DNA of 40,318 bases from Eggerthellaceae bacterium (GTDB lineage Bacteria > Actinomycetota > Coriobacteriia > Coriobacteriales > Eggerthellaceae), in the NCBI GenBank assembly GCA_017431165.1, contig JAFRLO010000004.1, positions 1-40,318 of the forward strand, written 5' to 3'. Both the position numbers and the translations under genes were made by a program. Shown here piece after piece: positions 11,150 to 19,294 of the stretch. The notes below the pieces were generated by a model. It had not been told where the DNA came from. It was given only the letters and a program-made list of their open reading frames with translations, and ran no database searches. Numbering within the stretch: the stretch's first letter is position 1; each line of letters opens with the position of its first letter.

Positions 11150-12052
11150 TTAGTAGCTCCACGCTGAGCCTTCAGCATCTTCGGCGTAGAACTCGTATCT
11201 TGATGTAGGCGCGTACAGGGCCTGCTTGAACGCACTCGCGGCAAGCTTTTTCAAGACGAGGTCGACGTCTTCTTGCGCAAAGCCCGCTTCGACAAGCGCC
11301 TGTGCGTCCTTCCCGCGCTCAAGATGCGCGACCAAGATGTTGTCAAGAACGGCATACTCGATACCGAGGGAGTCCTCATCCGTCTGATCGGGAGCGAGCT
11401 CGGCACTTGCAGGCTTATTGATGACATGACGCGGAATCGGCTGCTTTTTCAAAGGCTCCAAGCCAAGCATGGTCTGGTTATACAATGCCGCATGGGCCTG
11501 CCCAAGCGCATAAGCAGCTTGCTCGTTGCGCCATCGGCATAATAGATACACATCCGTCTTGTATAAGCCGCCAATCGGCGCATAAGCCCCTGCCATATCG
11601 CCATAGAGCGTGGCGTATCCCATCGCAGCCTCGCTCTTGTTGCCCGTATTGAGCAAAAGCCATCCGTGCGCATTCGAGAGCGCCATCAGGCAGATCATGC
11701 GGCAACGCGCCTGGATGTTCTGCGAAGTCGTGCCATCGAAAGCTTCACCGCATACATCTTTAAGTTCGGCCGCGAAGGCATCATACGCCCCCTTGATCGA
11801 AAGCGTCATCGTGTCGATGCCGAGATTGCCGGCAAGGGCCAAGGCATCTGCGCTCGCATGGTCGGTCGAGTAAGGGCCGGGGAGCAATACGCCATGCACA
11901 TGGGCGGGCCCGAATGCATCGACCGCCATAGTGGCGACGAGCGAACTGTCCACACCACCCGACAAACCGATGACCACATCGGTTGCCCCGGTAGCTTCAA
12001 CGAACTTCTTCAAGTCAGACACGCAGGCGATGTACTTGAGATGGCTATCCAT
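11150..12052 (-). CDS. nadE: NH3-dependent NAD+ synthetase
   Basis: Makes NAD+ from nicotinate adenine dinucleotide, ATP and ammonia, the last step of NAD synthesis, in the cytoplasm. The 300 residues show the adenylating P-loop GLSGGVDSSLV near residue 30, NIQARCRMICLMALSN, LLNTGNKSEAAMGYATLYGD, and GGLYKTDVYLL. There is no nitrilase (glutaminase) domain, so it should use free ammonia. AAGGAGG precedes the ATG. It is the last gene of the run from the amidohydrolase to here, 62 bases after hypB; a weak hairpin (CGCCC/GGGCG, 12072-12088) stands in that gap. A metabolic link between nadE and hydrogenase maturation is not obvious. Confidence 0.95.
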   Translation of the reverse strand: MDSHLKYIACVSDLKKFVEATGATDVVIGLSGGVDSSLVATMAVDAFGPAHVHGVLLPGPYSTDHASADALALAGNLGIDTMTLSIKGAYDAFAAELKDVCGEAFDGTTSQNIQARCRMICLMALSNAHGWLLLNTGNKSEAAMGYATLYGDMAGAYAPIGGLYKTDVYLLCRWRNEQAAYALGQAHAALYNQTMLGLEPLKKQPIPRHVINKPASAELAPDQTDEDSLGIEYAVLDNILVAHLERGKDAQALVEAGFAQEDVDLVLKKLAASAFKQALYAPTSRYEFYAEDAEGSAWSY

Positions 12053-12114: not shown

Positions 12115-12765
12115 TTACGCTTGACGGATACGCTCCGCAAGCCATTCCGCCCATTCTTCAACGCCTTCTCCGCGCGTTGCAGCGACATGGAATATCGGTA
12201 CCTGCGGATTAAGGCGCTTAACCGATGAGGTAAAGGCCTCAACATCGAAATCGAATACGGGCAATGTATCGACCTTGTTGAGGATGATGGCTTGCGCAAC
12301 CTGAAACACGCCTGGGTACTTCAGCGGCTTGTCATCGCCCTCGGGCACCGACAAGATCATGACCTTGACGTTCTCGCCGAGATCGAAATCTGTCGGGCAC
12401 ACCAGATTGCCGACGTTCTCGATGATGATAAGGTCAAGCCGTTCTAAATCGAGGACATCGATTGCCCGTTTAACCATGTCGCTTTCGAGATGGCATGCAC
12501 CACCCGTATTGATCTGCACGGCTGCGATGCCCTGCGCTTTAATACGCTCGGCGTCGACGCTGCTTGCGATGTCACCCTCGATGATCGCGATGTTGAATTC
12601 GTCGCGCAAAGCATCGATCGTTGCAAGGATCGTGGACGTTTTCCCCGACCCCGGGCTCGCGAGCAAATCGACCACGTATACGTGGTTTTGAGCGAAGCGC
12701 TCACGAAGCTCGCTCGCTATGCGATCGTTCTTCTCAAGAATCGGTTGCTTCAAATCGATCTGCAT
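12115..12765 (-). CDS. hypB: Hydrogenase nickel incorporation GTPase HypB
   Basis: GTPase that helps HypA deliver Ni(II) to the large subunit of [NiFe] hydrogenase. The 216 residues carry the G1 loop LLASPGSGKTST, the Walker B-type IIEGDIA, the metal-site GGACHLESDM, DLIIIENVGNLVCPTDFDLG, and the base-recognition NKVD. The N-terminal Cys-rich motif and His-rich stretch of some HypB proteins are absent, so it should transfer rather than store nickel. GGGGGA precedes the start. It follows hypA after 58 bases on the same strand. No hydrogenase structural genes are in the window, so they must lie elsewhere. Urease delivery is a less likely alternative. Confidence 0.95.
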   Translation of the reverse strand: MQIDLKQPILEKNDRIASELRERFAQNHVYVVDLLASPGSGKTSTILATIDALRDEFNIAIIEGDIASSVDAERIKAQGIAAVQINTGGACHLESDMVKRAIDVLDLERLDLIIIENVGNLVCPTDFDLGENVKVMILSVPEGDDKPLKYPGVFQVAQAIILNKVDTLPVFDFDVEAFTSSVKRLNPQVPIFHVAATRGEGVEEWAEWLAERIRQA

Positions 12766-12823: not shown

Positions 12824-13183
12824 CTAGTCGGGCAGGTCGACTTCCATCGAGTCGATTTCAAGTTCACGGCCCGCAATCAGCTTCGTCGCGAAACTCCCGC
12901 ATTTCGGACACAGCATGTCGAAACGATCGTGCTCATAACAGTTACCGCATTCGAGACATTCGCTTTTAGGACGTACCATCTCGATGACAAGCTGCGCATC
13001 CTTGCATAAACCGTATTCGGGCAGATCGCGGAGAGCCTCGAACGCGAATACGAGCGCATCTTCGATTGCCTCGGTCATCTCTCCGATCTTCAAATTGACC
13101 GCGATGACGCGCGTTGCGCCCGCATCGGTCGCAGCACTCTCGACCGCATCGAGCACACTCGTCATGATGCCAAGCTCATGCAT
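12824..13183 (-). CDS. hypA: Hydrogenase nickel metallochaperone HypA
   Basis: Small nickel-binding protein (119 residues) that passes Ni to the [NiFe] hydrogenase precursor with HypB. The N terminus is MHEL, the family's Met-His-Glu nickel site. The zinc site is built from CLECGNC and CPKCGS near residues 76-97. The conserved LKIGEMT strand is present. GGAGG lies before the ATG and overlaps the end of tatC, five bases upstream, so it is translated as part of the tat operon. Pairing with tatC fits hydrogenases that are folded with metal and then exported by Tat; this link is inference. Confidence 0.95.
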   Translation of the reverse strand: MHELGIMTSVLDAVESAATDAGATRVIAVNLKIGEMTEAIEDALVFAFEALRDLPEYGLCKDAQLVIEMVRPKSECLECGNCYEHDRFDMLCPKCGSFATKLIAGRELEIDSMEVDLPD

Positions 13184-13188
13184 GTGCG

Positions 13189-13986
13189 CTATTCCTCCAA
13201 CCCGAGCTCTCTGAGATCTTCGAGTTCCTCTTCCTTCTCACGCGCGATACGACGACGAAGCGCGATGCGCGCTATGAGCAAACTGATTTCGTAAAGCGCG
13301 ACAAGCGCCGCGAACATGAGCAGCATCGTCACGGGAGACGCATCTGGCGTGACCATCGCGGAGATGACCAAGAGGACCACGTACACGGTGCGCCAGGCAC
13401 CACGGATCTTCTTGTACGGAACGACATCGAAGATGACGAGATAGAACACGATAAGCGGTAATTCGAATGCGAAGCCGAACCCGAGCTCGAATTTGATGAT
13501 CATGTCGATATAGGTGCTCATGCGTGCTTCGATCGTGCCAAGGCCCGCTGCCTGGTCGGTCAGGAATACGAATGCTGGGTGCAGGATGATAAGGTAGCAG
13601 AAGATGGTGCCCTGGATGAACAAAGCAACCGCAGCCGCGATTGTCGGAATGAACCATTTGCGCTCATTCGGTTTGAGCGCTGGCAGGAAAAACGCAAGTA
13701 TCTGCCAGAGTATGATGGGCGCACATGCGACGAACGATGTCCACAGCGCGATGATGAAGCGCGTCGAGAACGCTTCGAACGGGTCGAGCGCTACCAAATC
13801 GCCGAAGCCCTCGGCATCGGTTGGGATGCAGTCCGCAATAGGTAAAAGCAAGAATTGACCGATAGTCGGTGTTGCCAGATAGAAAACGCAGATCGAAACG
13901 AACAGCACGACGACGATGCGCACGAGACGCATACGCAATTCGCCCAAATGGTCCATCAGAGGCATGCGTGCTGGTCCGATAGGCAT
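13189..13986 (-). CDS. tatC: Sec-independent protein translocase TatC
   Basis: Membrane receptor for twin-arginine signal peptides. The 265 residues have six hydrophobic segments and the family's signature regions: MDHLGELRMRL at the cytoplasmic N terminus, FELGFGFAFELPLIVF, and SAMVTPDASPVTML before the last helices. The C terminus is charged and probably cytoplasmic (RRRIAREKEEELEDLRE). GGAGG precedes the start. It follows the tatB-like gene by three bases and precedes hypA by five, so the Tat and Hyp genes almost certainly share a transcript. A second tatA-type gene is at 30484-30918. Confidence 0.96.
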   Translation of the reverse strand: MPIGPARMPLMDHLGELRMRLVRIVVVLFVSICVFYLATPTIGQFLLLPIADCIPTDAEGFGDLVALDPFEAFSTRFIIALWTSFVACAPIILWQILAFFLPALKPNERKWFIPTIAAAVALFIQGTIFCYLIILHPAFVFLTDQAAGLGTIEARMSTYIDMIIKFELGFGFAFELPLIVFYLVIFDVVPYKKIRGAWRTVYVVLLVISAMVTPDASPVTMLLMFAALVALYEISLLIARIALRRRIAREKEEELEDLRELGLEE

Positions 13987-13989
13987 CGC

Positions 13990-14592
13990 TTAGGCCTCCT
14001 CGTCCACATCGGCAACGACCTCGACGAGGCTGGATGCCTCGATAGTCGCCTCTTCGGCTTCATCCGTTTCCGCAACGACTTCATCGCTTATCGGGCTAGC
14101 CTGATCAACGGGCTTCATGGAATAGAGCTCTTCGATGGAGACTCCGGCGACAGAAGACTCTGCGACCTTCTTGGAAGCATTGTCTTCGACTACGTCTACT
14201 CCAGCATCTGAGGAAGCCTCCTTCTCAGAGGCATCGACAAGCTCGGATGCGGCCTTCGCTTGTTCGGCTTTCTCCCGCTCGCGTTTCTCGCGTTCAGCTT
14301 TTTCCTGTTCGTATCGTGCTTTACGAGCAGCGAAGCTCTCGCCTGCAACGGTTTTCTTCGATGCAGACGTCGATTTGCCCGTAAGCGAGTCGAGCACATC
14401 GGCGGCAGTCTCCCCTGTCTCAGGGTCGATGACCTCCTGTTTGAGCACAGAAGATACCTCTTGTTCCGCCTCGCGGAACTTCACAAGAGCTTTTCTCAGT
14501 GTTTTCAGGAAAGCGGGTATCTTCTCAGGGCCGAACAGCATGAACGCGAACAGCACGATGAGAAAGAGCTCGAATCCTCCGATACCGAACAT
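13990..14592 (-). CDS. tatB: TatA/TatB family translocase subunit with long acidic tail
   Basis: A 200-residue protein with one N-terminal membrane helix (FELFLIVLFAFMLF), the Tat hinge FGPEKIP, and an amphipathic helix (AFLKTLRKALVKFREAEQEV). The Glu in the membrane segment and the place just before tatC favour TatB over TatA, but the split is not certain from sequence alone. After about residue 70 comes a low-complexity Glu/Ala/Lys/Ser tail, much longer than the conserved core. It would work with TatC as the substrate receptor at the cytoplasmic membrane. The short membrane protein gene ends 19 bases upstream. Confidence 0.85.
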   Translation of the reverse strand: MFGIGGFELFLIVLFAFMLFGPEKIPAFLKTLRKALVKFREAEQEVSSVLKQEVIDPETGETAADVLDSLTGKSTSASKKTVAGESFAARKARYEQEKAEREKREREKAEQAKAASELVDASEKEASSDAGVDVVEDNASKKVAESSVAGVSIEELYSMKPVDQASPISDEVVAETDEAEEATIEASSLVEVVADVDEEA

Positions 14593-14611: not shown

Positions 14612-14809
14612 TTACGAAGCGCCGAACACCGCGATAGCCATGGTGGGGATGCCAAGGGCAAGGACCAAGATCACGCAGACGACGATCGTGAAGATCTGCT
14701 TACGACGTGACTCCTTCTCCTTCTTGGCTTGGGCGCGCTCTTCGCGCTCTTTGGCGGCCTGAACGCGGGCCGCACGCTGCTTTGCAGTGAGTTTCTTGGT
14801 TTTCGACAT
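14612..14809 (-). CDS. Small basic single-pass membrane protein of unknown function
   Basis: A 65-residue protein that I do not recognise. Residues 1-37 are very rich in Lys, Arg, Glu and Ala (KQRAARVQAAKEREERAQ) and would form one charged amphipathic helix. Residues 38-61 form a single hydrophobic segment (IFTIVVCVILVLALGI). The topology is probably a cytoplasmic basic helix with the tail in the membrane. It starts five bases after the amidohydrolase stop, with GAGG upstream, and ends 19 bases before the tatB-like gene, so it belongs to the tat operon. A role with Tat is inferred from position only. Confidence 0.75.
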   Translation of the reverse strand: MSKTKKLTAKQRAARVQAAKEREERAQAKKEKESRRKQIFTIVVCVILVLALGIPTMAIAVFGAS

Positions 14810-14813
14810 TGCT

Positions 14814-16169
14814 TTACATCCTCAACTTATTACGTATTTCGATGACGCGCGCGATAATACGTGCGACCTCAACGTCAACTTCCCAGTGGTTCTTCTCGTA
14901 CAGCTTCTTCCCATCGACCATCGTCATCAGAATATCGGACCCATTGCAGGTATTCACGATACTCTGCGCAGGATTGAGATTAGACGATTGACCCGCACCC
15001 GAAAGATCGATGGCAATGATGTCGGCACGCTTGCCAACCTCAATGGAACCGATGATGGAATCCATGCGCAAAGCCTGCGCGGCCCCGATTGTTGCCTGAG
15101 CAAGCATATCCTCCGCCTCGACGAAGTCGCCGACGTTGATGGAACGCTGCAGAAGCGTTGCGAAGCGGACCTCACCGATCAAATCGGCAGACGACAGAGC
15201 CGTCGAGGCAGCGGAACCGAAACCGAAGCGGATGCCTGCGCGGCGAAGCTCGTCCATCGGCGTCACGCCCATACCAAGCTGCGCAGCACTGCGCGGGCAT
15301 ACCGCCACAGAGACATCGTATTCCTTGAGCTTCTTGATATCCTCCTCGTCCACATGGATGCAGTGGATCGCCATGACATTGGAGGGCTCGAATGCGTCCC
15401 AATTGAGCGCATAGCGTACTGGAGAACACCCAGCCGGCATCCACGGTGGCACTTCGACGAAGCCGATGCGATCCTCCATTTGATGCAGAGAGAGAGCATC
15501 GGAACCGTACCTCACGAAATTGTATTCCTCATGACTCCCCGCCAAATGCATGGCAACGGGCAGATTCTCAGCTAGCGCTAACTCGGAAACGCGCGCATAG
15601 ACGAGAGGATGGCAGATATATGTGGGAGCAGGAGCGATGCCGGCGGTAACGCGATCGGAGTCTGCGCACTCGCGCCAACGGATAATATCGTTTTCAGCAT
15701 TGCGCATGGCGTAATCGATGCGACGCTTGTCCTTCGCCGCAACGCGGCGATACACCACACCGCGCAAGCCCAATTTGTTGAGAGCCTTCCACGAAGCTCC
15801 CGCATAGGTGATATCGGCAAGGCAGGTGATACCTGCCGCGATTGCCTCAAGACCGCCAAAGAGTGCGGAATCGTTCCAGTCAGCCGCTTCAAGTTTGGAG
15901 CTGTTCTTCGTCATCTGCGATGACCACGACACGAAGGGAACATCACGTACGCTGCCACGCATGACTGCGCTCTCGAGATTCGCATTCAAATCGATTAGGC
16001 CTGGCATAAGTGCAGCGTTACCGTAATCGAGCACTTCCTCGTCGGGATAACGCAGTTTCAGCATTTCAGCACTGCCAAAGTCGCAGATGCGATTATCACG
16101 CACCAAGATTGCCCCACTCTCGAACGGAGAAGAGGTAATCGGAAGGATGTAGTGCGCGCATAAGAGCAT
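14814..16169 (-). CDS. Amidohydrolase-superfamily protein with degenerate metal site
   Basis: About 451 residues, related to the ATZ/TRZ-MTA/SAH-deaminase branch of amidohydrolases. The fold markers are there: the N-terminal beta domain, MPGLIDLNANLESAVMRG, VAMHLAGSHEE, AIHCIHVDEEDIKKLKEY, VCPRSAAQLGMGVTP, GKRADIIAIDL. The catalytic residues are not. The metal-binding HxH after PGLID is NxN, the Glu of HxAE is Gly, and the Asp of GTD is Ser (FGFGSAAST). It may be inactive as a hydrolase or work without metal. I start it at the ATG 16167-16169, which has GAGGGGGA upstream; the frame continues to 16256. It heads the run 65-residue protein-tatB-tatC-hypA-hypB-nadE. Confidence 0.8.
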   Translation of the reverse strand: MLLCAHYILPITSSPFESGAILVRDNRICDFGSAEMLKLRYPDEEVLDYGNAALMPGLIDLNANLESAVMRGSVRDVPFVSWSSQMTKNSSKLEAADWNDSALFGGLEAIAAGITCLADITYAGASWKALNKLGLRGVVYRRVAAKDKRRIDYAMRNAENDIIRWRECADSDRVTAGIAPAPTYICHPLVYARVSELALAENLPVAMHLAGSHEEYNFVRYGSDALSLHQMEDRIGFVEVPPWMPAGCSPVRYALNWDAFEPSNVMAIHCIHVDEEDIKKLKEYDVSVAVCPRSAAQLGMGVTPMDELRRAGIRFGFGSAASTALSSADLIGEVRFATLLQRSINVGDFVEAEDMLAQATIGAAQALRMDSIIGSIEVGKRADIIAIDLSGAGQSSNLNPAQSIVNTCNGSDILMTMVDGKKLYEKNHWEVDVEVARIIARVIEIRNKLRM

Positions 16170-16286: not shown

Positions 16287-18767
16287 CTAGTACGGCTCGT
16301 CGAGGTTCGCGTGTGCGTACGCGTCAGTACTCAAATCGAAGAAACGCCCATCTCGATAACGATCGAGGGCAACCAACGCGATCATGCCGGCATTATCCCC
16401 GCATGAACGCAGAGGAGCCATGACGAGCTTCACGCCAAGATCGCGTGCAAGGCCCTCGTATGCCTCACGGAGCTTTGGATTCGCCGCAACGCCGCCGCCG
16501 AGGCAGAAGGTCTTCGCTCCCGTTTGCAAAAGCGCCGTCTTCGCCTTTGCGATCTGCACATCGATGACCGCCTGTTGGAAGCTCGCCGCAATGTCGGGGA
16601 TGTTAAGGGCCTCTCCCCGCACTTTGCGTTGGTTGATGTAGGTGACGACCGCGGTCTTTAGCCCCGAAAGCGAGAAACGCAAGTCTCCCGAATGGAGCAT
16701 GGCACGCGGAAACGCAATGGCGCAAGGATCACCTAGCTCAGCCTGCTTGCTGATAATCGGACCGCCGGGATAGCCTAAATCCAACGCCTTCGCGACCTTG
16801 TCGAATGCCTCTCCGACAGCATCGTCGATCGTCGTGCCGAGCGTAACGTAGTCGCCCCAGTCCCGCACATGCACGAGCATGGTGTTTCCTCCCGAAACGA
16901 GCGAGGCAACCGCTGGAGGCGCGAAATCCGTATCGGCAAGTTTGTTGGCATACAGATGGCCTTCGAGATGGTTGACTCCGATAAAAGGCTTATCGGCACC
17001 CCACGAAGCGCCTTTTGCGAATGCGACGCCGACCACGAGGGCCCCCACAAGGCCGGGAGCATATGTGACGGCAACCGCATCGACATCCGACCATGCCAGA
17101 GACTCAACGCCAAGCTCGCGCGCTGCTACATCGAAGCATTCATCGCACACCCCGCAGATCGCTTCGATGTGCTTGCGACTCGCAATCTCAGGAACCACGC
17201 CCCCGAAACGGGCATGGAAATCGATTTGTGAGGCAATCACGTCGGCAACGAGCGTGCCATCTGCGGTCACAAGCGCCGCCGCTGTTTCATCGCATGATGA
17301 TTCGATTGCGAGAATGAGAGGCCTAAGGTCGTCTAAAACCTTCTTGGAAGAGCCGCTGACGGGTGCCGTGGCACATTCGTCAACGCGCAGCCCCATCTGG
17401 GACAGACGCGCCTGGGATGCGGATGCGTCTTGATCGGGCATACTTGCACGCGGCCCGTGTATCAGTTCTTCGACCGTGCCCTCCATGATGAGGGCGTCCT
17501 CACCGTCCGAGTAGTATCTAGGCCGCGTTCCGAGCGAATGCATCCCGAGCGCACCATAGAGCGCTTGCGCCCCTACGTTGGAAGCGCGTACTTCCAATGT
17601 GCAACGATCCGCTCCGAGATTGCGTGCATCATCAGCCACGCGGGCAAGCAAAGTGCGGGCGATTCCTCGACGGCGCCACTCCGGTTGCACAGCAACCTTC
17701 AAGATTTGAAGCTCGCCATCAACGATGAGTCCTCCCGCATAACCTAAAAGTTCGCTTGCATTGTCCGAAGAAAGAGCCATCCACCAAACGCGATCGGATC
17801 GTTTAAGCTCATCGTACAATGATGCAGCGCTCCATGCGCCCGACCCCATCGAAACGTTCTCGAGCTCGGCAGCTGCATCGGCATGCGCGCTATCAAGGGG
17901 CTGGTAGACGATGCTTCTATTTGACAGGGCACCACCCTGCACTCCATGCATCAAATCCCTTTCGTCTTGCGTGGCAAGGCGCTTACGCTCGTTTTCCTCT
18001 GCGTCTGACAGACGCGTATAAACGGGAAGTACGAACGCCGGATTGTGACGACAAGAATCAAAAGGATCAGCTTCGCCGTTTCGCCACGCCGCCTGCACAG
18101 CAAGGAGCAAACCTAGGCCTGTCGGCGTCCACAAATCCACAGGGAGCAGCGTCCCAAACGGTTCGAATACATCAACGTATTTTGCAAGCGCATCGCCTGC
18201 GATGGCCAAGTCGCTTGGCGCAATCGCATACTCGGCGAATTTCTGCGGTGCCGATGCCACCGCAAGCACGCTATCGCTTTCAAGGCGGACCACCCCATCA
18301 TCAGAAAGCTCGAAAAGCACTGGATACACTTCCTTGCGCATCGCATCGGCCGCGATGGCAAGATGACCGCGAACGCCATCCGACCATGCGTTCCAAGCGA
18401 CCGCATCAAGCGAGCTTACGCCGACAAGGGCCACGCCGAGAGCGCTTGCAATGCCCTTGGCGGTTGCCATGGCAATGCGTACGCCCGTAAAGGAACCGGG
18501 ACCGCGCCCGCACGCGATGCATGCGATGCTCTCCCGCCCGATACCCGCCTCGCCAAGCAACGCATCGATGGTTGGGAGAAGCAGGGTGTTGGATGCGCGC
18601 CGCGCCTCGATCTCAGCATGTGCGACCATGGAGATACGGCGCTGTGAAGAATCTGCACTGTGTTCTAGAAGGCCTACGCCGACGGCGATGACCTCGTTGG
18701 CGGTATCGAATGCGAGCACATATCGCCCTGTTTCCAAAATGAGGTTCGTATCTGGCATGCGCGCCAT
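16287..18767 (-). CDS. tsaB-rimI-tsaD: TsaB-RimI-TsaD fusion: t6A tRNA modification and protein N-acetyltransferase
   Basis: One reading frame of about 826 residues joins three proteins. Residues 16-258 are TsaB (VLAFDTANEVIAVGVG, CGRGPGSFTGVRIA). Residues 285-430 are a GNAT acetyltransferase like RimI (VAVQPEWRRRGIARTLL is the acetyl-CoA loop). Residues 484-826 are TsaD (AIESSCDETAAAL, metal-site NHLEGHLYAN, CGDNAGMIAL). TsaB and TsaD form the complex that puts threonylcarbamoyl on A37 of ANN-reading tRNAs; RimI acetylates the N terminus of ribosomal protein S18. I start at 18767, where ATG overlaps the tsaE stop by one base (TGATG) with AAGGG upstream. No stop or shift occurs between the domains. 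Confidence 0.95.
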   Translation of the reverse strand: MARMPDTNLILETGRYVLAFDTANEVIAVGVGLLEHSADSSQRRISMVAHAEIEARRASNTLLLPTIDALLGEAGIGRESIACIACGRGPGSFTGVRIAMATAKGIASALGVALVGVSSLDAVAWNAWSDGVRGHLAIAADAMRKEVYPVLFELSDDGVVRLESDSVLAVASAPQKFAEYAIAPSDLAIAGDALAKYVDVFEPFGTLLPVDLWTPTGLGLLLAVQAAWRNGEADPFDSCRHNPAFVLPVYTRLSDAEENERKRLATQDERDLMHGVQGGALSNRSIVYQPLDSAHADAAAELENVSMGSGAWSAASLYDELKRSDRVWWMALSSDNASELLGYAGGLIVDGELQILKVAVQPEWRRRGIARTLLARVADDARNLGADRCTLEVRASNVGAQALYGALGMHSLGTRPRYYSDGEDALIMEGTVEELIHGPRASMPDQDASASQARLSQMGLRVDECATAPVSGSSKKVLDDLRPLILAIESSCDETAAALVTADGTLVADVIASQIDFHARFGGVVPEIASRKHIEAICGVCDECFDVAARELGVESLAWSDVDAVAVTYAPGLVGALVVGVAFAKGASWGADKPFIGVNHLEGHLYANKLADTDFAPPAVASLVSGGNTMLVHVRDWGDYVTLGTTIDDAVGEAFDKVAKALDLGYPGGPIISKQAELGDPCAIAFPRAMLHSGDLRFSLSGLKTAVVTYINQRKVRGEALNIPDIAASFQQAVIDVQIAKAKTALLQTGAKTFCLGGGVAANPKLREAYEGLARDLGVKLVMAPLRSCGDNAGMIALVALDRYRDGRFFDLSTDAYAHANLDEPY

Positions 18768-19294
18768 CACCTTAACCCTTGGAAACGCTCGGCTGCCTTC
18801 TCGAGCGCCTCTTCCCATAGGGCGCGAAGTTCACGTGACCTTTTCCCCGTTGCATCGATATCAATGGTTCGAGCAGCAACATCCTCGAGCGCGCTTTTCG
18901 AGCTCAGATACACGATCAGTCGGTCATCAGGCAGAGCTTCGGGGAATTTGTCACCCCACTCGATGCACACTACGCCCTCGTCCTCTAAGACATCGTAAAA
19001 CCCGATGTCCTCGAGTTCGAGCGCATCATCGAGCCGATAAAGATCGAAATGGAAGAGCGGGATCCTCCCGTCGATATACGAAAGCAGGATATTGAAAGTC
19101 GGGCTTATGACCTGAGCGGAAACGCCCAAACCGGCTGCAAGCCCTTGGACGAATTGCGTCTTCCCAGCACCGAGATCACCCGAAAGCTCCATGCAATCCC
19201 CCGCTTCGACGAGCGACGCAAGCGCCTTCGCCATTTCTTTGGTGCCTTCAACGCACGAAGTGCCCCAAGTATGATCCTGCATCTTGGAAATCAT
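18767..19294 (-). CDS. tsaE: tRNA threonylcarbamoyladenosine biosynthesis ATPase TsaE
   Basis: ATPase that drives the turnover of the TsaB-TsaD complex in t6A synthesis. The 175 residues carry the Walker A loop SGDLGAGKTQFVQGLA, SPTFNIL, HFDLYRLDD and the conserved CIEWGDKFPEALP. The 7-base gap to coaX and the one-base overlap with the TsaB-RimI-TsaD gene show tight translational coupling. It may begin at MISKMQDH or at the next Met (MQDHTW); AAGGA near the coaX stop favours the first. TsaC, which supplies threonylcarbamoyl-AMP, is not in the window. Confidence 0.95.
   Translation of the reverse strand: MISKMQDHTWGTSCVEGTKEMAKALASLVEAGDCMELSGDLGAGKTQFVQGLAAGLGVSAQVISPTFNILLSYIDGRIPLFHFDLYRLDDALELEDIGFYDVLEDEGVVCIEWGDKFPEALPDDRLIVYLSSKSALEDVAARTIDIDATGKRSRELRALWEEALEKAAERFQGLR

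Follow-up and report, generated by a model that had tools for sequence, protein, structure and literature searches.

An amidohydrolase-fold protein without its catalytic glutamate beside the Tat genes of an Eggerthellaceae bacterium, and its proposed origin from a menaquinone-pathway deaminase

The window analysed here, a stretch of 40 318 nucleotides from an Eggerthellaceae bacterium (contig JAFRLO010000004.1), carries a gene for an amidohydrolase-like protein, here called X, from which most of the usual active-site residues are missing. The question is what such a protein is kept for. The initial annotation proposed a pseudo-enzyme, a binding protein or a metal-free catalyst; the evidence below favours the first two over the third, without proving either.

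Sequence, fold and genomic setting of X

The gene for X lies on the minus strand at 14814–16169 and encodes 451 amino acids. In the ORF list and in the sequence as read directly, the frame runs from an ATG at 16169 to a stop at 14814; the start codon is common to the orthologues and has, just upstream, a purine-rich stretch similar to a ribosome-binding site. Membership of the Amidohydro_1 superfamily is clear (Pfam PF01979, 135.6 bits over residues 54–421, cutoff 25), and no NCBIfam equivalog cutoff was reached, the best score being 178 bits with 540 required. An AlphaFold2 model (mean pLDDT 90.1, pTM 0.91) has the TIM barrel and the composite sandwich domain. Among PDB structures it matches adenosine/MTA deaminases best (4f0s: Z 51.0, rmsd 1.9, 420 residues), with aminofutalosine deaminases ranking lower (3v7p, Z 43.9; 7lkj, Z 42.5). 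By sequence and structure together, the nearest solved folds are the MTA/SAH/adenosine deaminases of the TRZ/ATZ branch (4f0r/4f0s, 4dyk/4gbd and TM0936, 1p1m). These enzymes hold Zn or Ni through HxH, two further His and an Asp, and also carry HxxE, whereas X lacks most of these residues.

All the motif positions given here are on the minus strand. In place of HxH, X has Asn62-Ala63-Asn64 (15978–15986, codons AAT GCG AAT), aligned with the HGH or HTH of adenosine deaminase homologues. The HxxE motif is His208-Leu-Ala-Gly211 (15537–15548, codons CAT TTG GCG GGG); Gly211 takes the place of the catalytic Glu of active metal-dependent amidohydrolases and, in the alignment with 4f0r, falls opposite the first E of its HETADE. 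The alignment shows the fourth His ligand, His269 (15363–15365), to be kept, and GTD to be replaced by Gly318-Ser319-Ala320 (15210–15218). The initial annotation had thus read NxN and HLAG correctly and had rightly counted one or two remaining ligands, His208 and His269 being what is left of five (N62, N64 and A320 replace the others), but it was mistaken in giving the Asp of GTD as Ser: in the alignment with solved relatives the ligand Asp has become Ala320, and Ser319 stands at the Thr. Given the mechanism of the superfamily, X in the window lineage is not expected to hydrolyse substrates in the usual way, since both the acid/base and the normal metal site are gone. Some residual metal binding by His208, His269 and other side chains could occur. 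A model of a metal-intact orthologue (L021) is equal in quality to that of the window protein, and differences between the two lie chiefly around the lost ligands: the strand that ends at HxH is shorter in the window X, and the mean pLDDT of residues 321–330 is 66, against 83 in L021.

The same substitutions are found in three separate assemblies of the genus, namely the window, genome G186 (locus record L003) and a further record, L004, and there are no frameshifts. Between the window and L004, 43% of the synonymous but only 1.7% of the non-synonymous sites of X differ, which gives a dN/dS of 0.027; between the window and L003 dN/dS is 0.018. Because pairs of metal-intact orthologues give 0.018–0.109, selection on the window lineage is not relaxed. 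A draft genome that is 67% complete, in a group where most orthologues keep HxH and GTD, might raise the suspicion of local decay, sequencing error or a dying gene, but this is hardly credible against three assemblies with shared changes, an unbroken frame and dN/dS of 0.018–0.027, which rule out error and decay. X has an enzyme fold, has lost its catalytic residues and is under purifying selection, and so has the features of a pseudoenzyme. A scan of contigs with single-protein patterns of X returned near-identical copies and one distant match only.

X is the first gene of a one-strand run that continues, all on the minus strand, with a 65-aa single-TM protein (14612–14809, no NCBIfam match), a tatA/B-like gene adjoining tatC (13990–14592, NCBIfam TatA/E and TatB matches under cutoff), tatC (13189–13986, TIGR00945, 144.5 bits, over cutoff), hypA (12824–13183, TIGR00100, 82.1 bits, slightly below the cutoff of 88.1), hypB (12115–12765, TIGR00073, 270 bits) and, as its last member, a nadE-like gene placed by its position and named from the sequence (11150–12052). 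Gaps within the run are 3–62 bp and the gap to the gene upstream of X is 117 bp, so that an intact frame at the head of an operon, as first annotated, is a reasonable description. Also on the minus strand, at 16287–18818, is an 843-aa ORF resembling a TsaB-RimI-TsaD fusion, which adjoins a TsaE-like gene.

Residue conservation and ligand loss in the order

The orthologues of X are spread over Coriobacteriia and further Actinomycetota. Of the 299 genomes of the window's order, 129 have a strong orthologue (best E < 1e-70), as do 83 of the 90 in its family. Ninety-two orthologues of the order were aligned, three further records of the window genus among them. Position 211 is Gly in 86 rows, Ala, Ser or Cys in five and Glu in one; it is Gly in all 13 orthologues taken from outside the order and Glu in all 20 of a second set of relatives, the Glu-types described below. 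A pocket histidine, His181, is found in all 20 Glu-types, in 7 of the 13 outside-order Gly-types and in none of the 92 order rows, the window protein having Ala181.

Of the 92 rows, 63 have all five metal ligands (metal-intact members occur in G059, G001 and G213), 6 have four and 23 have at most three; loss, seen in 29 rows, is close to all-or-none. Between ligand-intact and ligand-lost states, parsimony needed 12 changes on a 117-row tree and 10 on a smaller and more careful tree, of which supported branches force 7 and 6, respectively. The metal ligands were accordingly lost independently at least six to seven times, a count that leans on weakly supported branches. Glu occupies the HxxE position in two sequences that have nevertheless lost metal ligands, L045 4900–6252 (minus strand) and L151, the second of which is not in the smaller tree. 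Normal HxH and GTD in orthologues had been named in advance as the finding that would point to local decay or sequencing error. Most orthologues do keep both motifs, but the near absence of the Glu and the repeated, independent ligand losses indicate a trend of the whole family, not local decay or error.

Conserved non-ligand positions average 90% identity in the ligand-poor rows, a comparison of retention that was used for non-ligand columns only, as it is circular by construction for the ligand columns. Glu214 and Glu215 are invariant in the order (92 of 92), Glu215 being found in the Glu-types as well. The Glu-types lack H187, R141 and N256, each of which is conserved to 96% or more in the order, as is E214; P241 and A324 are also newly conserved there. 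This pattern of conservation suggests a new binding function rather than drift. Together with purifying selection, conserved synteny and a confident barrel model, the invariant non-ligand residues support the earlier view that X is retained for a role outside standard metal-dependent hydrolysis.

Since all five ligands are kept over deep divergence in most orthologues, metal probably matters in these, and the X family as a whole may not be one of pseudoenzymes. We considered that the metal-intact majority could be metal-dependent enzymes of altered mechanism, with Glu214 or another residue standing in for the HxxE Glu and a quinone-related substrate, so that only lineages like that of the window would be pseudoenzymes. 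Five ligands in 63 order rows and in all 13 outside-order Gly-types, the invariance of Glu214 and Glu215, and a ligand loss so nearly all-or-none, as would be expected of a metal site working as a unit, are in keeping with this. However, the ligand set has been lost many times with no relaxation of the remaining protein, Glu215 is shared with the Glu-types and is hence no new base, and the pocket His181 has gone as well. We regard this explanation as unlikely, if still worth serious attention.

Relatives outside the order and probable descent from MqnX

The relatives of X in other Actinomycetota are of two kinds. Gly-type orthologues outside the order are 36–43% identical to X and retain all five ligands (13 of the 13 used). 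Glu-type relatives (HLAES or similar, n = 20) retain the Glu, the ligands and His181. A single branch, supported at 100/98 in the smaller tree, divides the two kinds, and the replacement of Glu by Gly at position 211 thus has one origin. Glu-type genes adjoin mqnC in 9 of 22 loci and mqnA in 7 of 22, often with an MTAP-like gene, and a genome search placed several of them no more than about 6 kb from a PF02621 (MqnA/MqnD) match. On this operon context, the Glu-types are most likely aminodeoxyfutalosine deaminases. As the Glu-types, many of them in mqn operons, are the nearest outgroup of X, the two groups have a common descent.

Gene order provides a further connection. Outside the order, a polyprenyl diphosphate synthase (PPPS) gene is directly upstream of the Gly-type gene in 11 of 13 loci. 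It is often preceded by MenG and a TIGR04190 B12-radical-SAM gene, and the Gly-type gene is followed by RseC-like and TPR genes, tatA and tatC; tatA/tatC are downstream in 5–6 of the 13. One locus, L143, combines both arrangements, reading MenG, PPPS, mqnA, mqnC, Glu-type, TPR, tatC. Because it links the two addresses, X looks like a descendant of MqnX at the old locus, and the simplest reading of these gene orders would be that X remained where MqnX had been when mqnA and mqnC disappeared from the locus. The TIGR04190-type B12-binding radical SAM gene also recurs by MenG and X in other loci (upstream of X in L035, L041 and L080, and in L118–L124).

Compared with MqnX (PDB 7lkj and 3v7p), X has the same fold (Z 42.5–43.9), length and syntenic address, and the HxHLE context that is found also in the Glu-types of mqn operons, but Gly211 and Ala181 replace the catalytic Glu and the pocket His, three of five ligands are lost, and the genome has no detected MqnA or MqnD. 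No PF02621 match was obtained in G000 or in the 98%-complete G186, and nowhere in the order was there a convincing MqnA/MqnD, the weak PF02621 matches reaching at best 50 bits against 189–264 for true ones. With MqnA/MqnD undetected in the genomes that carry it, X as an active MqnX of the futalosine pathway was ruled out for the order. A survey of Actinomycetota describes repeated switches between the futalosine and classical menaquinone pathways and reports methylated menaquinones in Coriobacteriia (PMC13386864).

MenD, of the classical pathway, was over cutoff in 11 of 26 sampled genomes of the order, 10 of which bear X. A tie between ligand loss and MenD loss was not evident, no clear pattern emerging from 30 sampled genomes: among ligand-poor genomes, MenD is over cutoff in G037, G274, G103, G288 and G055 and not in G186, G189 and G119. 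In G000 and G186, both of the window genus, MenG is present while MenD (over cutoff) and MqnA/MqnD were not found, and a quinone precursor may be scavenged in this genus. Across the 299 genomes the co-occurrence of X and MenG is strong: they are found together in 109, are both missing in 150 and each occur alone in 20, counts that ignore phylogeny and include many incomplete genomes among those with only one of the two. A strict X–MenG link was not upheld, given the 20 exceptions each way. MenG is upstream of X in 28 of 44 long loci of the order, half of the time on the opposite strand. Genomes G119 (1.45 Mb, locus L089) and G134 (locus L093) keep X although they lack MenG, and the X of G119 is on a very long branch.

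Possible roles of X

The neighbours of X point, as far as gene content can, to quinone and respiratory functions. From these neighbours, the newly conserved residues, the lost catalytic site and the precedent described below, we propose that X is a binding or scaffold pseudoenzyme. With moderate confidence, we favour X as an exapted pseudoenzyme derived from MqnX that now serves as a ligand-binding or scaffold protein of a quinone/respiratory module. The Gly-for-Glu clade arose once, and in many Actinomycetota it sits at what is apparently the old MqnX address, between MenG/polyprenyl diphosphate synthase and tatA-tatC. In the window's order, where MqnA/MqnD are undetected, His181 is missing from all 92 orthologues and the ligands have been lost repeatedly, with other positions held by purifying selection; the window's genus has lost three of the five ligands, and hydrolysis has presumably been lost in the window lineage. 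X would bind a ligand or partner of the module through the old barrel with E214, H187, R141 and N256, candidate partners, guessed from the neighbours, being polyprenyl diphosphate synthase, MenG or a Tat-linked process. The full history is more tentative, at about even chances or slightly below: that Coriobacteriia dropped the futalosine pathway, and that the deaminase stayed at its locus, was taken over for a non-catalytic role in the quinone/respiratory module and lost its active site stepwise, the Glu once, next the pocket His and last the metal site, at least six to seven times independently, while the protein itself was kept.

A special version of the binding-protein reading is that X and its 65-aa TM neighbour help Tat substrates, for example hydrogenase or respiratory enzymes, to be exported or assembled. 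The order X, small TM protein, tatA, tatC, hypA, hypB is tight and co-directional across the order, the 65-aa protein adjoining X in 29 of 44 long loci and tatC no more than 6.5 kb away in 35 of 44, with X, the TM protein, tatA and tatC in one direction, and tatA/tatC also follow X in the 5–6 outside-order loci. However, TatC is near-universal in the order (290 of 299 genomes, about 165 of them without X), which rules out a strict X–Tat link and means that Tat does not need X, and the operon position may be a heritage of the ancestral MqnX locus, as in L143. We consider such a Tat-linked factor to be quite improbable.

It is very unlikely that X is a metal-free catalyst whose barrel uses H187, R141, E214 and N256 for another reaction: the high conservation of these residues (at least 96%, with H187, R141 and N256 not in the Glu-types) and the very low dN/dS would fit, but the new residues suit a binding site equally well and no particular metal-free chemistry is indicated.

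The favoured, non-catalytic role of X has parallels in the superfamily. CRMP and other dihydropyrimidinase-like proteins have the amidohydrolase fold with no metal site and serve as binding proteins, although their role is in the eukaryotic cytoskeleton and they are of another subfamily than X. The best precedent, which the proposed role of X would resemble, is the pseudo-dihydroorotase (pDHO) of Pseudomonas, which is inactive yet required for aspartate transcarbamoylase (ATCase) activity (PMC7053772). Like X, pDHO is an amidohydrolase-fold chain; it is itself inactive and needed by a partner enzyme of its own pathway. It differs in subfamily and pathway, and the repeated metal loss within one family is particular to X. 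The kind of protein is already known, and the X family itself appears undescribed in the open-access literature searched, where no paper on it was found.

Whilst pseudoenzymes are usually viewed as single end points, the X family displays the steps side by side in living genera and at a conserved genomic address: Glu-intact forms in operons, Glu-less but metal-competent forms, and several independent metal-poor lineages. An annotation as 'amidohydrolase' or 'deaminase' would mislead for many of these proteins. The gene for X is a specific case to be explained, next to MenG and Tat in common gut bacteria, and, if the proposed history is true, a switch of menaquinone pathway can leave a protein behind for a new role.
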